From the IMG/VR virus record IMGVR_UViG_3300044699_000121, positions 1 to 35,484 of that record: DNA of 35,484 bases. One strand, written 5' to 3'. Shown here one piece after another: positions 6,401 to 22,916 of this stretch (positions are counted from its first letter, which is position 1; each line of letters begins with the position of its first letter). The notes beneath the pieces were generated by a model. That model worked only from the letters and a program-made list of their open reading frames with translations, ran no database searches and was not told the origin of the DNA. Source of the stretch: a virus. Made by a program: the position numbers and the translations under genes.

Positions 6401-6474
6401 TCGCGCACAATGCGGCGGTGCTCGTCGAGTCGGAAGAGGGCCTGCGTCAGCTGCTCGCGGCGGAGATGGCCTGA
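3415..6474 (+). CDS. Very large tail/nozzle-type structural protein, frameshifted
   Basis: A protein of about 1,019 codons read across several frames. GTG 3415 opens with VVSFSLAQGRRDRVDPK and NLRVRKDGRLGCRYGYQPL. This resembles the start of phage tail proteins with 'SLAQGxDxKxDPK...RKRNGY'. Repeated beta-rich segments follow: STREFRCSFAVDTFYVFSQK, ADNALDLLAFKPTTNTGF, IGSDITISGTDTTSLSLAV and SLLKAHDGLYFQLDDEKIYR. These suggest a propeller-like body. The C-terminal part, 5908-6474, is intact and ends EGLRQLLAAEMA. It directly follows the adaptor, so a tail tube, nozzle or stabilisation role is likely. At least eight indels are present. The 605-codon open frame at 4167-5984 is only partly genuine (its second half, from about 5150). 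Confidence 0.55.
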
Positions 6475-14585: not shown

Positions 14586-15341
14586 TCAGGGGGGCGCGTT
14601 CAGTAGCCCAGGTGGAGGCAGCTCCCATGCGAGTCGAGCCACTGCCGGAACCTGTCCTTTTCCAATGGCCGCAGTCCGCTCCACCCGATCGGCCACAATC
14701 ATCAGCCATTCGATGCGCTCGGTCTCGGATTGTGCCCATACTTTCGACTTCTGCTCTCACGGTCTGAGTGCACTTCGGAGCGCGTTCTCCGCCGTTGTGC
14801 TTTGGTCATATGTCGGCCGACCGCCCCAGCCTTCCAGGTGCGCCCGCGGCGTGTGCCACGATCCAGATTCCGTCTCGCTTGTGGGGGGCGCCAACGTGGC
14901 GAGCTCCCAGCACATCCCATCGCGCATGATACCCGAGCGCGGCCAGGTCACCGAGCACGACGCCAAGCCTCGAGAGTAGTGAGATCTGGGCTGTTTTCCA
15001 CGAACGCGAAGCGGGTCGTACTTCGCCAATGATGCGAGCAAACTCAGTCCAGAGCCCGGATGCGCTCCCCCGTGATTCCGACGGCGGGTTCCGACGCTAC
15101 TGATGTCCAGACAGGGGAAGCCGCCGCTGATGACATCGACGTGCCCTCGCCAGGGCTTGCCATCAAAGGTGGTGACGTCATCCCAGATGGGGAAGGGCTC
15201 GAGCAACCCGTCCCGTTGCCGGGCGAGCAGCACGCTGCGGCAGTAGGGATTAATCTCGACAGCGCACACGGTGCGCCATCCAAGCAAGCGCCCTCCCAGG
15301 ATGCCGCCGCCCGCTCCTGCAAATAGTGCCAGCTCACGCAT
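14586..15341 (-). CDS. DNA (cytosine-5) methyltransferase, frameshifted
   Basis: ATG 15341 opens MRELALFAGAGGGILGGRLL, motif I for S-adenosylmethionine binding. Pro76-Cys77 in SGGFPCLDISS is the catalytic PC motif. After indels the chain continues with GLWTEFARIIGEVRP, FVENSPDL (the ENV motif), VLGDLAALGYHARWDVLGA and VGAPHKRDGIWIVAHA. A last frame change gives RIEWLMIVADRVERTA and IGKGQVPAVARLAWELPP. This corresponds to motif X, and it stops at 14586. All key blocks are present if about four indels are corrected. The short variable part suggests a small target domain. No paired restriction gene is visible, so it is probably an orphan protecting phage DNA. Confidence 0.75.
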
Positions 15342-15903
15342 GAGCGCCCCCAGGCCGCCGCCGATCCCAGATGACGACCAGACACCCGAACGGGGGTTTT
15401 TGCTCGTGCGGTTGCCGATCTCGGTGCCGTGGTACAGGAACGGGCGCCGCTTCGGCAGATTGCGGGTGGTGAGGATCGAGCCGGGCGGTCACGGTAGGGC
15501 TCGATCAGGTTTTGCCAAAAGGGCTGCTCGGCGCGGTTGTTCGGCAGCAGCATCACGACCGTGGACGCGCTCTCATCCCAGCCTTCTGCACCCAGGGGCG
15601 CACGCCACTAAAAGGCGGGTTGACCCACACGGTGTCGTGCAGCCACGGCGTAGAGAGCCCGTCACTCGGCATCGAAAAGAAGGGCGCCGCCTCGCCCGGG
15701 CGCCGCTCATAGCTGCCCGTCAGCGTGCAGTAGCGATCGCACTTGGTGTTGTGATGGTTCGCTGCCGCGTCGAGCGTGAAACGAAACTCCGCATGCAGCG
15801 GCACCCAGATGCAGGGCGGCGTCTCGCGGTCGTCGATGGCGTCGTCGACGCCGCGCTTTTTGGTGCTGTTCGGGTGGTTGCGAGGGATGAAGCCAGGGTG
15901 CAT
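15334..15903 (-). CDS. Phage N6-adenine DNA methyltransferase (Dam family), frameshifted
   Basis: ATG 15903 leads to ETPPCIWVPLHAEFRFTLDA, then AANHHNTKCDRYCT, and WVNPPFSGVRPWVQKA. NPPF is the catalytic N-P-P-(Y/F) motif of adenine methyltransferases, and the whole layout is that of the phage Dam family (PF05869-like). Indels near 15570 and 15480 lead to VMLLPNNRAEQPFWQNLIEP, RPFLYHGTEIGN and PFGCLVVIWDRRRPGG. The stop at 15334 overlaps the ATG of the cytosine methyltransferase (ATGCGTGA). The two methylases are thus coupled and probably mask phage DNA from host restriction. Confidence 0.75.
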
Positions 15904-19059: not shown

Positions 19060-19418
19060 CCCCAGCCCTGCCCAACCGCGCCTTGCCTAACCCCGCCCAG
19101 CCTCGCCCTGGTGTCATCCCCTGCCGAGCCCAGCCTGACCCGGCCGAGCCCTGCCAAGCCGCGCCCTGCCCTGAGTGTCTCCCTGCCTCGCCGCGCCATG
19201 CCAAGCCCAGCCTCGCCTTGGTGTCTCCCTGCCTAGCCATGCCCCGCCCCGCCTGGCCAGGCCCGGCGCAGCCCGGCGCCGCCCCGCCATGCCCCGCCCA
19301 GGTGTCTCCCTGCCTCGCCCCGCCGAGCCAAGCCTAGCCAGGCCCAGGTGTCTCCCTGCCTTAGCCCCGCCACGCCCGGCCCGACCCAGCCTAGCCGCGC
19401 CCAGCCCTGGGGCAGCCT
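19060..19418. repeat. GCC-pentamer array with interspersed GTGTCTCCCT units
   Basis: The only gene-free stretch over 300 bases. The plus strand is a run of NNGCC pentamers, about 60 copies with variable NN, broken by GTGTCTCCCTGCC units near 19174, 19219, 19301 and 19348 and a degenerate one near 19095. The minus strand therefore shows GG every five bases, which allows two-tier G-quadruplexes. Open frames across it are Gly/Ala/Arg-rich artefacts. It lies between two minus-strand phage genes, upstream of the replication protein. Possible origin region, RNA leader structure or host-type repeat. Confidence 0.85.
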
Positions 19419-19992
19419 AGTTGAGCTCGACGGAGAAGCGGCCGAAGCGCGGGCGATAGTCGCCGACGCCGATCGTCGCTCCTGCGATCTTGAGCGCTGA
19501 CACGACGTCGTCACAGCTAATCACGGGCTCGTTCACGTCGAGGCGAACGGCCACGCTCCACCGGTCAAAGCGGGGTCTGGCGCGCATCACCTTGGCGGCC
19601 TGATTGCGCACGCCACGATAGTCGAGAAAGCGCCCGGACTCCCACATGCTCTCGAGCGTGGTGGGGCCATCGTATTCGAGCGGGAAGCTAGAGCAGACGG
19701 GAAAGACGCCGCTCTGCGCTTGTTTGCCGAGCTTGTTCTTTCGCGCGCCCTCTTTGACGGCGGCCAGGATCCAGTCTACCGGCACCACGGGGCGGTCCTC
19801 CTCGCGGTGCATGCCGAGGGTCCACTCGCTCTTTTTGAGCGCCTCGAGATCGGCCTCGGTCTTGCGCCGCTTGGTGGTCAGTTGCTTGTGCACGCGCACG
19901 AGCGGATTCATTGCGTCGACGAGCACCTCGTTGTGTTGCAACAGGGGTGCGATGCCGACGAGGCGGCACTGTAGGGTGGTGAGTAAATTCAT
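19417..19992 (-). CDS. Conserved-type phage protein of unknown function
   Basis: 191 residues from ATG 19992, intact. It opens MNLLTTLQCRLVGIAPLLQH and has VHKQLTTKRRKTEADLEALK, then PVVPVDWILAAVKEGARKNK, LGKQAQSGVFP, and the end VVSALKIAGATIGVGDYRPR, FGRFSVEL. This order, with a 'KRRKT', 'P-P-W-I-AA-K-GA-KNK' core and 'GDYRPRFGRF' end, is shared by a phage protein family I have seen in other genomes without function. It overlaps the upstream gene by four bases. The repeat array begins directly after its stop. Confidence 0.65.
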   Translation of the reverse strand: MNLLTTLQCRLVGIAPLLQHNEVLVDAMNPLVRVHKQLTTKRRKTEADLEALKKSEWTLGMHREEDRPVVPVDWILAAVKEGARKNKLGKQAQSGVFPVCSSFPLEYDGPTTLESMWESGRFLDYRGVRNQAAKVMRARPRFDRWSVAVRLDVNEPVISCDDVVSALKIAGATIGVGDYRPRFGRFSVELN

Positions 19993-20429
19993 TTGCGGAT
20001 GACTTCCTTTGCTTCGGGTAAACGTCGCTCGGTCAAGTTGGTGAGGGCCGCGCCCTGGGCAATGGCGTGACGCTGCAGGACCATCTGCTCGAGGTCGGCG
20101 CGCTTGCGGTCGAGGCTCGACAAACGGCTGGTGTCGATCTCGCTGCCCCGCGTCGCGTGCCGCATGCTCGCTTTGGTCGAGCCCTCGGCAAACCGCACCC
20201 GGCGCCGGAGCGCGTCCATCTCGCCGATGACCGAGAGCATGCCGTCCTGGGCGACGATGCGCCCGGTCAGGCGCGGATCGAGCGTCTCGAGCTTCTCCCG
20301 CAGGCGCCGCAGGTCGGCCTTGCACGGCGGGCGCCCGAAGAGCGCGAGCAGCTCGGGCGGGGTAATCGTCGAGCCCGTGTCGAGGTTGGCCACGCCGGGA
20401 TAGTCCGGGACGAAGCGGGCGACGCTCAC
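19989..20429 (-). CDS. Hypothetical protein downstream of the integrase
   Basis: 146 residues from GTG 20429, overlapping the integrase stop as GTGA and the next gene as ATGA. It reads MSVARFVPDYPGVANLDTGS, then ALFGRPPCKADLRRLREKLE, and ends with a coiled region (SSLDRKRADLEQMVLQRHAI). Intact. No catalytic motif is recognised. After integration this gene would start the prophage's rightward-separated operon, because attP lies just upstream. Confidence 0.6.
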   Translation of the reverse strand: MSVARFVPDYPGVANLDTGSTITPPELLALFGRPPCKADLRRLREKLETLDPRLTGRIVAQDGMLSVIGEMDALRRRVRFAEGSTKASMRHATRGSEIDTSRLSSLDRKRADLEQMVLQRHAIAQGAALTNLTERRLPEAKEVIRK

Positions 20430-22339
20430 CGCGCACTCCGCTTGCGGCGCTCGACGAGGAGCTGGGTGACGTTGGACCCGGTCTCACGGGACCTCGCGAG
20501 CAGCGCCCAGTCACGCGAGACCCGCGCGAGCAGCTCGGGCTCACGCGCGGCCAGTACGAGCTCGACGAGGCGCGCATAATTGGCCTCGGTGAGGGACGAG
20601 ACTGGCAAGGCCTCGGCGTCGTCCTGCTCGCTCGTGTGCGTTCGCGTGCACGAGGCGCGTGACGGGTCCCGTTCGTGCGTCGACAGGGCAATTGTAGCCG
20701 AATTTCTAATTCGCTGGTCCCCCGTTCGAATCGGGGCGGGCGTACCCTCTGAAAGGTCTCGATTCATGCTGGTTTCCTCATTTTCGGTCGAGTCGTCGAA
20801 AACGCCGGTAGCCACCCTGGTAGCCACCCTATTTTGCCCGTCCGGGCCGAGGGGCGAGGGGGTCTCGTGAAGAGCCAACTGAGCACCGGCGACCTCTGCC
20901 GCCTGCGCGATCTCGCCCTCGAGACCGGCGAGACCGACCTCGCCGAGACCCTCGGAAAAATGATCGCCGAGCGGGGCCGAGCCCCGGGCCCGATCGCTCC
21001 CGTCCTCGAGCTGCGGCCGGGCCGCGGGGGGCAGGGCAGCGGCCGCGGGCAGTGATGCCGGCAGGGATGCCGGGGCCTCGAGCCCGAGGGCCACGTCGAG
21101 CCCGAGCGCCACGTCGAGCGGCAGCCAGTCGCGTAGCGCGAGCTTGGCCACCCGAGGCCGGCGGTAGCGGGCGATCATCTGGCTCGTGGTGTGACCGGTC
21201 CGCTCGCGGATCCATTCCTCGCTCCGGCCATTGGCGAGCGCAAAGGTGATGAAGCTCGCGCGGCAGTCGTGGAACTCGACCGGGCGCTGATGCGCGGAGG
21301 TCTCGAAGAGCTGAGCGCGGGCGGTCTTGCCGAGCGCGGTCTCGAGGTGCTTGCGAAAGCGCTTGGCGATCGTGTCGGGGTGCCACTGGGGGAAGATGCA
21401 GGCGCTCTCGGGCACCGTAGCCCCCGGCTCGTCCTCGGCCCGGGCGTGGCGCTCGTCGGCGATGGCTTTCAAGGCGCGCAGGGCCCGCACACACCCCGGG
21501 TCGAGGTCGAAGGCGACGGGCTTGCCCGTCTTGCTATCGGGCACCCAGACCTGACCGTCGATAAAGTCGATGTCTTGCCAGCGCAGGTCGAGGAAGTTTT
21601 GCTTTCGGCAACCGTTGCGGATTGAAAACCCGTAGAAGGCCCGATCGAAGAGGTCTATCTCGGCGCAGGCCAGGAGCTGCGCGTCCTCGCGGGGGTAGAT
21701 GAGCTGAAACTCGCGCGAGCTCTTGACCGTCGGCAGGCAGCCCGCCGACAGGGGGAAGTCCGTGCGCACGCGCAGGTTGATGGCGCGCCGCAGGAGCCAG
21801 CTCATCACCTGGGCCATGGAGCGCCGGGAGGAATCGCTGTCGGCGCTATCGGGAATGGCGGCCATCACGGCCTCGAAGTGGTCGAGCGAAAAGTCCCGCA
21901 TGAGCACGGGCCCGACCACGCTCGCCACGAACTCGATCCGGCGCTGGTCGCCGTCTTGGGTTTTCTGCTTTCGCGCGCGGATCTTGTGCATGCCCCGGAA
22001 GCGCTTGAACAGGCGCCCGCTCGTCCACTCTTCTCCAAACTCGCGGAACGTCATCCCCGCGTAGCCCTTCGGCTTGTCTTCGGCGATGGGCTCGGCGCAC
22101 ACCCTGCGGATCCCATCGGCCACGGCCTCGAAGTCGTCGCCGGCTGCGGCCAGCATCACGAGCGAGGGCTTGGCCTCGACGAGGCGCCCGGTTTTCACGA
22201 GCAAGCGGGCGATGTCGGTCATGGTGCCGAGGCGCGCGCGGAACGTGGGCTCGTCGGGAGCGACCACGGCAAAGCTCGGGCGGTTGCCGTCGCCGATACG
22301 GATTTGAACCAAGTACTTGCCGTCTGCCGTTCGCTTCAT
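20426..22339 (-). CDS. int: Tyrosine integrase with attP inside its 3' end
   Basis: 637 residues from ATG 22339. Arm-binding and core-binding regions fill about 1-200. The catalytic domain has R245 (NGCRKQ), K270 (DSKTGKP), H357 and R360 (FHDCRAS), H383 (RTGHTT) and the nucleophile Y392 (IARYRRP). The active site is therefore complete. After residue 400 comes a Pro/Ala linker with repeats (LDVALGLDVALGL), then RVATRVATGVF. Residues about 532-548 (APIRTGDQRIRNSATIA) are the antisense reading of the tRNA-like attP. Residues 549-637 form a further helical tail (LTEANYARLVELVLAAREPE). The open frame upstream to 22462 is not needed. Confidence 0.9.
   Translation of the reverse strand: MKRTADGKYLVQIRIGDGNRPSFAVVAPDEPTFRARLGTMTDIARLLVKTGRLVEAKPSLVMLAAAGDDFEAVADGIRRVCAEPIAEDKPKGYAGMTFREFGEEWTSGRLFKRFRGMHKIRARKQKTQDGDQRRIEFVASVVGPVLMRDFSLDHFEAVMAAIPDSADSDSSRRSMAQVMSWLLRRAINLRVRTDFPLSAGCLPTVKSSREFQLIYPREDAQLLACAEIDLFDRAFYGFSIRNGCRKQNFLDLRWQDIDFIDGQVWVPDSKTGKPVAFDLDPGCVRALRALKAIADERHARAEDEPGATVPESACIFPQWHPDTIAKRFRKHLETALGKTARAQLFETSAHQRPVEFHDCRASFITFALANGRSEEWIRERTGHTTSQMIARYRRPRVAKLALRDWLPLDVALGLDVALGLEAPASLPASLPAAAALPPAARPQLEDGSDRARGSAPLGDHFSEGLGEVGLAGLEGEIAQAAEVAGAQLALHETPSPLGPDGQNRVATRVATGVFDDSTENEETSMNRDLSEGTPAPIRTGDQRIRNSATIALSTHERDPSRASCTRTHTSEQDDAEALPVSSLTEANYARLVELVLAAREPELLARVSRDWALLARSRETGSNVTQLLVERRKRSAR
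20698..20746 (+). other. Candidate attP: 3' part of a tRNA-Arg(TCT)
   Basis: The plus strand contains the anticodon arm to the 3' end of a tRNA. Loop TTTCTAA gives anticodon TCT (20705-20707), flanked by a 4-base stem. A five-base variable loop (TGGTC) follows, then a perfect T arm CCCCG-TTCGAAT-CGGGG (20720-20736), acceptor strand CGGGCGT, discriminator A and CC. No D arm or 5' acceptor strand precedes it. Phages that integrate into tRNA genes carry exactly such a 3' piece, so this is probably the att core. It lies inside the integrase coding region. Confidence 0.75.
20807..20830. repeat. Tandem 12-base repeat near attP
   Basis: GGTAGCCACCCT occurs twice without a gap, about 60 bases from the att core and inside the integrase gene, where it encodes RVATRVAT. 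Direct repeats at this distance from a core are typical of arm-type integrase sites, so a binding role is possible. Simple coding repetition is the alternative. Confidence 0.4.
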
Positions 22340-22344
22340 GGTCG

Positions 22345-22770
22345 TTATTTTCCTCGGATGCGGCGCAGCTTTTCCGCCGTCGCCTCCGCCACCGTCGCAT
22401 GCCGGCCGGGGGGTGGGGTAGCTGGGCCCCCGTTCCGTGTATCGGGCCTGGCCGTGCCGCACTTGCGCAGGCCGGGCTTGGCGACGCTGGTCATTTCTTC
22501 CCAGAGCGCCTCGCGAGTGAGTAGATAGCGCCGCCCCTTGACAGAAGCCCCCGGCTTGCCTTCTGCCCGCCGCCGCCGGACGGCTTGGCAGTGCTGGCGC
22601 ACCGTCAAGTCGCTGTGATGCTGGTCTAGCCAGCCCGGCTCGGCAGCGCCGTCGCCTTCTGCGGCGCGCCCCGCAATCGCCTCGACGATGGCTGAAAACG
22701 CGCGCGCCAGCTCTACGAGATCACCCGCTGCACCCTTCATGGGCTCCACCCTTTTCTCCGGAACGTCCAT
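22345..22770 (-). CDS. Excisionase-like DNA-binding protein
   Basis: 141 residues from ATG 22770, or 131 from ATG 22740, which has GTGGAG just before it. After a helical stretch (LVELARAFSAIVEAIAGRAA) comes SDLTVRQHCQAVRRRRAEGK, then GASVKGRRYLLTREALWEEM. This resembles the winged helix-turn-helix of excisionase/MerR-like proteins (recognition helix followed by the GR-YLL wing). It lies five bases upstream of the integrase start, the usual place for a recombination directionality factor. The C-terminal part is Pro/Thr-rich. It may also act as a regulator. Confidence 0.5.
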   Translation of the reverse strand: MDVPEKRVEPMKGAAGDLVELARAFSAIVEAIAGRAAEGDGAAEPGWLDQHHSDLTVRQHCQAVRRRRAEGKPGASVKGRRYLLTREALWEEMTSVAKPGLRKCGTARPDTRNGGPATPPPGRHATVAEATAEKLRRIRGK

Positions 22771-22865
22771 GTTCCGATTAGGTGACTTTTTTAGAGAGTC
22801 TGTTCTAAGGTAGCCAGGGCAATCTGCAGCGAGGCACGTCTTTGGTGAGCGAGTGTAACAGCAAC

Positions 22866-22879
22866 GGGGGGGGGGGGGG
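22866..22879 (+). repeat. 14-base G homopolymer in the divergent control region
   Basis: A run of 14 G lies between the divergent excisionase and LexA-like genes, about 40 bases before the operator. Such tracts are prone to slipped-strand length change and to sequencing error, so the true length is uncertain. No coding sequence is affected. Confidence 0.8.
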
Positions 22880-22916
22880 CTGGCAACCCACAGATACAGG
22901 TGCGCCGAATCTGTAC

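Follow-up and report, generated by a model that had tools for sequence, protein, structure and literature searches.

Tojo in 1996 and Magrini in 1999 reportedly described the int (intP) gene of Myxococcus phage Mx8 with an internal attP, and the 1999 Mx8 papers are said to have found the prophage form of Int less active. According to a 2018 review (PMC6070905), the attP of Mx8 lies within int and int acquires a new 3' end on integration; this change does not inactivate the enzyme but alters its specificity, and has been termed a molecular switch. In the SSV1 type, integration splits the integrase gene into Int(N) and Int(C), dividing the N-terminal part from the catalytic one, and function is lost (PMC8371274). 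In the integration-dependent immunity of actinophages, attP lies in the repressor gene and ssrA-like tags are part of the system (PMC5559632).

The window studied here is the whole virus record IMGVR_UViG_3300044699_000121, 35,484 bases in length with 66.5% G+C. Its sequence gives good support to the view that this is a temperate phage with an integration module whose attP is embedded in the 3' part of int. The tyrosine integrase gene in its free-phage form (20426..22339, minus strand) is a 637-aa open reading frame starting at ATG. We assign its product (Int) to the tyrosine recombinases/phage integrases from a match of PF00589 (Phage_integrase) to residues 221-395, scoring 49 bits against the curated cut-off of 27.1, and from the R-K-H-R-H-Y set, which is in place as R245, K270, H357, R360, H383 and Y392. 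The catalytic domain thus spans residues ~221-395, including Y392 (21155..21682, minus strand). Our preferred reading, which we judge probable, is that this locus is an attP-in-int module as in Mx8, with a core that would be used for recombination, repeats that Int would bind and a C-terminal tail whose loss would affect Int.

The putative attP core, at 20698..20746 on the plus strand, is the 3' half of a tRNA-Arg(TCT): anticodon arm, variable loop, T arm and 3' acceptor strand. By codon mapping it is antisense to int and codes for Int residues 532-548, with residues 549-637 (89 codons) beyond it; the original prediction had placed the fragment here and opposite Int residues of about these numbers, and both the mapping and Rfam bear out its coordinates and counts. 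The Rfam tRNA model matches 20698-20744 (+) over model positions 26-71 with 24.7 bits (E 0.0015), which falls under the Rfam gathering score of 29 because the 5' half of the tRNA is absent; ARAGORN found no complete tRNA in the window, nor is there a 5' half. The fragment had also been called near-perfect; a small correction is that its outermost anticodon-stem pair is a C-C mismatch, which is the left edge of tRNA identity in the window core. A tRNA 3' half lying in int without its 5' half is the layout of a tDNA-type attP. The active site was correctly predicted to be complete at Y392, ahead of the core: all Int catalytic residues (R245 through Y392) are located upstream, and the core begins 140 residues past Y392.

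We found a sole relative among 2.9 million viral contigs, which were searched with Int, Int alignments, the tail, a catalytic DNA motif, the core pattern and both downstream genes as queries. This relative, IMGVR_UViG_3300025885_000004 (57,192 bases), has a 99-bp direct repeat at its ends, marking the genome as circular, and its putative attP is intact. Colinear protein matches to it cover much of the window, and its Int (666 aa) is 44% identical to that of the window. It too has a tRNA-Arg(TCT) 3' half antisense to its int, at the equivalent place and in the same orientation (Rfam, 34.0 bits, E 6e-6). Separately, the relative carries adjacent tRNA-Trp(CCA) and tRNA-Lys(TTT) genes (L014 18914-19082). 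Both phages thus have the core, a tandem repeat, a conserved tail and an overlap with the next gene in an equal layout, one of them on a circular genome; all statements on conservation of core, repeats and tail refer to n=2 genomes, the window phage and this relative.

The two cores differ at 12 of 47 bases, yet pairing is kept: in five of the 10 tRNA stem pairs both partners have changed. Across both cores 95% of stem cells are paired, compared with 35-55% when the partners are slid; a shuffle control on stem pairing gave 15/500, a weak control with two sequences only. The compensatory changes in half of the stem pairs suggest that the core copies a host tRNA, and the pattern is what would be expected of two phages each matching the tRNA gene of its own host, rather than of selection on the encoded peptide. 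This comparison with the relative lends good support to the predicted arrangement, a putative attP inside int with an 89-residue tail that would be lost on integration.

Between the catalytic domain and the core, Int has a fast-evolving linker (residues 416-531; 20747..21094, minus strand) that is 30% identical to that of the relative (z=3.0 as protein) and predicted to be disordered, with a pLDDT of ~25 from a poor model; the full-length Int model, at pLDDT 48, is too poor for use. The linker sequence holds an exact tandem 12-bp repeat, two copies of GGTAGCCACCCT at 20807..20830 on the plus strand. Read in the sense of Int, it is AGGGTGGCTACC twice, its first base 84 bp before the core; the relative has its own 12-bp tandem repeat, GGGTGGGCGAAT then GGGTGGGCGAGC, likewise starting 84 bp before the core. 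Such a tandem run at period 12 was reached in none of 2000 dinucleotide shuffles of the 200-bp flank of either phage, and the encoded peptides share little (RVATRVAT versus GWANGWAS). Judged by position and pattern, these repeats are probably P' arm-type Int-binding sites. They occur on one side only in both phages, and we found no counterpart across the core. We rejected the notion that the repeats lie in different reading frames in the two phages, which depended on the alignment.

The int gene overlaps its downstream neighbor, a gene of 146 aa (19989..20429, minus strand) whose GTG start lies inside the int stop codon (GTGA) and which integration would part from int. Its product is 75% identical in the relative, where the GTGA overlap is kept. 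The tail had been described as in frame with the overlap of this next gene; this is wrong, because the 146-aa gene, whose GTG shares bases with the int stop in GTGA, is read in another frame. The 146-aa gene is in turn overlapped by a 191-aa gene, phrog_4652 (19417..19992, minus strand), 90% identical in the relative; distant relatives of its product (~36%) occur in 129 phage records, lytic Felixounavirus phages included. Past the 191-aa gene are G+C-rich short tandem repeats (units of 5, 15, 20, 30 and 47 bp; 19061-19301 in the window, L002 8025-8339 in the relative), possibly an origin or regulatory region. Farther off, DNA methyltransferase matches (phrog_111, phrog_363) are spread across overlapping reading frames of different phase at 14757-15903 (minus strand), either several small genes or one broken gene, and the methyltransferase is likewise in pieces in the relative. 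On the other side, directly upstream of int, a small gene (22345..22740, minus strand) has the placement of an excisionase gene, as uoi does in Mx8, and from this position alone we infer an excisionase-like role; it is conserved at 46% in the relative, shows no similarity to Mx8 Uoi and had no family match. Just upstream of the int cassette, at ~22865-22880, is a run of ~14 G, a possible trouble spot for slippage or assembly. Int and the upstream gene are ~45% identical between the phages, against 75% and 90% for the downstream genes, so either the integration module evolves far more quickly or it was exchanged.

Beyond the core, Int falls into two parts of very different conservation. The spacer (residues 549-579; 20603..20695, minus strand) has 19% identity to the relative, and no protein conservation was detected between the two in any frame. 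The following 58 residues (580-637; 20429..20602, minus strand) form a conserved C-terminal tail, 46% identical in the relative and scoring z=11.2 above shuffles in the int frame, the highest score in any other frame, an antisense one, being z=8.0. The G+C content of the tail at the three codon positions is 0.74/0.52/0.88, the GC3 of 0.88 being coding-like. Modelled alone from a two-sequence alignment, the tail is predicted to form three helices (pLDDT 85); fold searches against the PDB and viral models gave no significant match, and no family match was found.

A possible objection is that attP does lie here but that exchange of the tail is a neutral side effect, the reading frame having drifted through attP in a compact cassette, with Int acting equally with or without the tail. 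An int/attP overlap would be natural in such a compact module, and the fast evolution of the linker and spacer suits the idea. So does the nearest annotated Int, that of virus Rctr16k (KX853514; 31% identical over residues 7-389), which is entirely tailless: unlike the window Int it has 401 aa and ends soon after the catalytic tyrosine. This Int also lacks a core, however, and we count the joint absence of core and tail in favor of the attP-in-int explanation. Against neutrality stand the conservation of the tail as protein in the int frame, in Ints only 44% identical overall, and the retention of the GTGA overlap. We therefore regard a neutral by-product as rather unlikely.

Less likely still is that the tail is a separate small protein made from an internal start, either constantly or just in lysogens, and joined to Int through a frame that is open by chance. 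The tail does fold by itself in the model and adjoins the downstream genes, the spacer that sets it off from the core is unconserved in every frame, and candidate starts can be named, TTG at Int residue 578 and GTG in the relative. These starts are unlike in the two phages, however, and neither is an ATG; no promoter-like site was found in 20380-20800; and in both phages the frame stays open from the linker through the core and across the spacer. We consider a separate tail protein improbable, and return to the attP-in-int module.

To look for its integrated form, we scanned genomes with Int and with a strict core pattern, and found no prophage, attL/attR or host tRNA of the window phage. The anticodon-to-acceptor pattern (30-odd fixed bases, no mismatches) had no match in 84,980 genomes, a strict setting under which one deviating base in the host tRNA would be enough for a match to be missed; the genomes scanned encoded no close relative of Int, and among plasmids there were weak Streptomyces matches only. 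As neither a prophage nor a host tRNA was found, we infer attP use and its effect on Int. That the host tRNA was not found could also suit a relic or decoy tRNA fragment with the working attP elsewhere in the phage, but this is very improbable, since a relic would decay whereas the fragment lies at the equal place in both phages with stems kept intact by compensatory changes, and with repeats flanking it at equal offset.

For the attP-in-int module we propose the following course of events. The core would duplicate the 3' half of a tRNA-Arg(TCT) gene of the host, antisense to int, and the tandem 12-bp sequences would serve as arm sites for Int 60-84 bp from the core, inside the coding sequence of the disordered linker. 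In the free circle, full-length Int would recombine attP with the tRNA gene. At one junction, beside the body of int, the host's 5' half and the core would restore a whole tRNA; the catalytic body of int would there become joined to the antisense of the tRNA 5' half, and prophage Int would comprise residues 1 to ~547 followed by a C terminus encoded by the host. Being unchanged to about residue 547, it would retain all of the catalytic residues. The three-helix tail and the two downstream genes would come to lie at the opposite prophage end, separated from the int transcript. Loss of the tail may lower or change Int activity, favoring stable lysogeny until excision restores the gene. Such a switch between free-phage and prophage forms of Int is plausible by analogy with Mx8 and from the conservation of the tail.

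As an illustration rather than data, we modelled hybrid C termini using textbook tRNA 5' halves instead of those of the real host; in most, translation continues with an end resembling ...IRNSPLYPAELRA, and in 8 of 32 a stop codon falls inside the tRNA. A further, more speculative idea, which we rate as possible but doubtful, is that one crossover throws two switches, removing a three-helix module needed for one direction of recombination and also cutting a translationally coupled operon, with the two genes after int silent in the lysogen until excision. For deletion tests, the conserved tail and the putative arm sites, now mapped, are clear targets. For annotation, prophage copies of such integrases will appear shorter, with tRNA-antisense ends.

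SSV1, which the original prediction had cited as an example of an integrase gene overlapping its attP, does not suit this Int as a model. The SSV1-type archaeal suicidal integrases do have an att site within the integrase gene, which integration rearranges, but SSV1 loses its enzyme by splitting whereas the window Int would keep all catalytic residues in one piece, its core lying well past the active site. Integration-dependent immunity is similar in that attP lies in a coding gene and integration changes the C terminus of the protein, acting as a switch, but the window attP would lie in int, and the C-terminal residues of the two Ints, RRKRSAR and RRKAGKQ, are not ssrA-like tags; we do not place the phage in that group.

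The closest match in design is Mx8 (records D86464 and AF396866), where an antisense tRNA 3' part lies inside int at 6445-6469 and is followed by 112 residues; a sizeable coding tail beyond the core, put forward as unusual in the window, is thus nothing new. D86464 gives a recombination-site feature at 2387-2415, within intP. In Mx8, too, an 11-bp sequence is repeated in tandem, at about -76 relative to the core; D86464 marks a 22-bp repeat region there, in addition to five other repeat regions inside intP. Judged alike, Mx8 itself and the window phage both have the core in int past all catalytic residues and a coding tail beyond. In both, the tRNA 3' part is antisense in int with the catalytic part upstream and a long coding tail after it, repeats lie within the coding sequence, and a small gene is found just upstream (uoi, the excisionase, in Mx8). 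They differ in that the window core runs from the anticodon arm to the acceptor end of tRNA-Arg(TCT), whereas the part seen in Mx8 runs from the T arm to the acceptor end; in that the window int overlaps the next gene, whereas Mx8 has a 47-nt gap; and in their tails, which are dissimilar by eye. We detected no homology between the two Ints beyond the superfamily (best BLASTP local match E 0.05, in short pieces), and so propose a likeness of design without claiming common descent. The window Int looks like an apparently independent case of the Mx8-type arrangement, a kind known since 1996, and would be a second integrase that rewrites its own C terminus on acting; this suggests that the arrangement of Mx8 is no mere curiosity but a solution that recurs.
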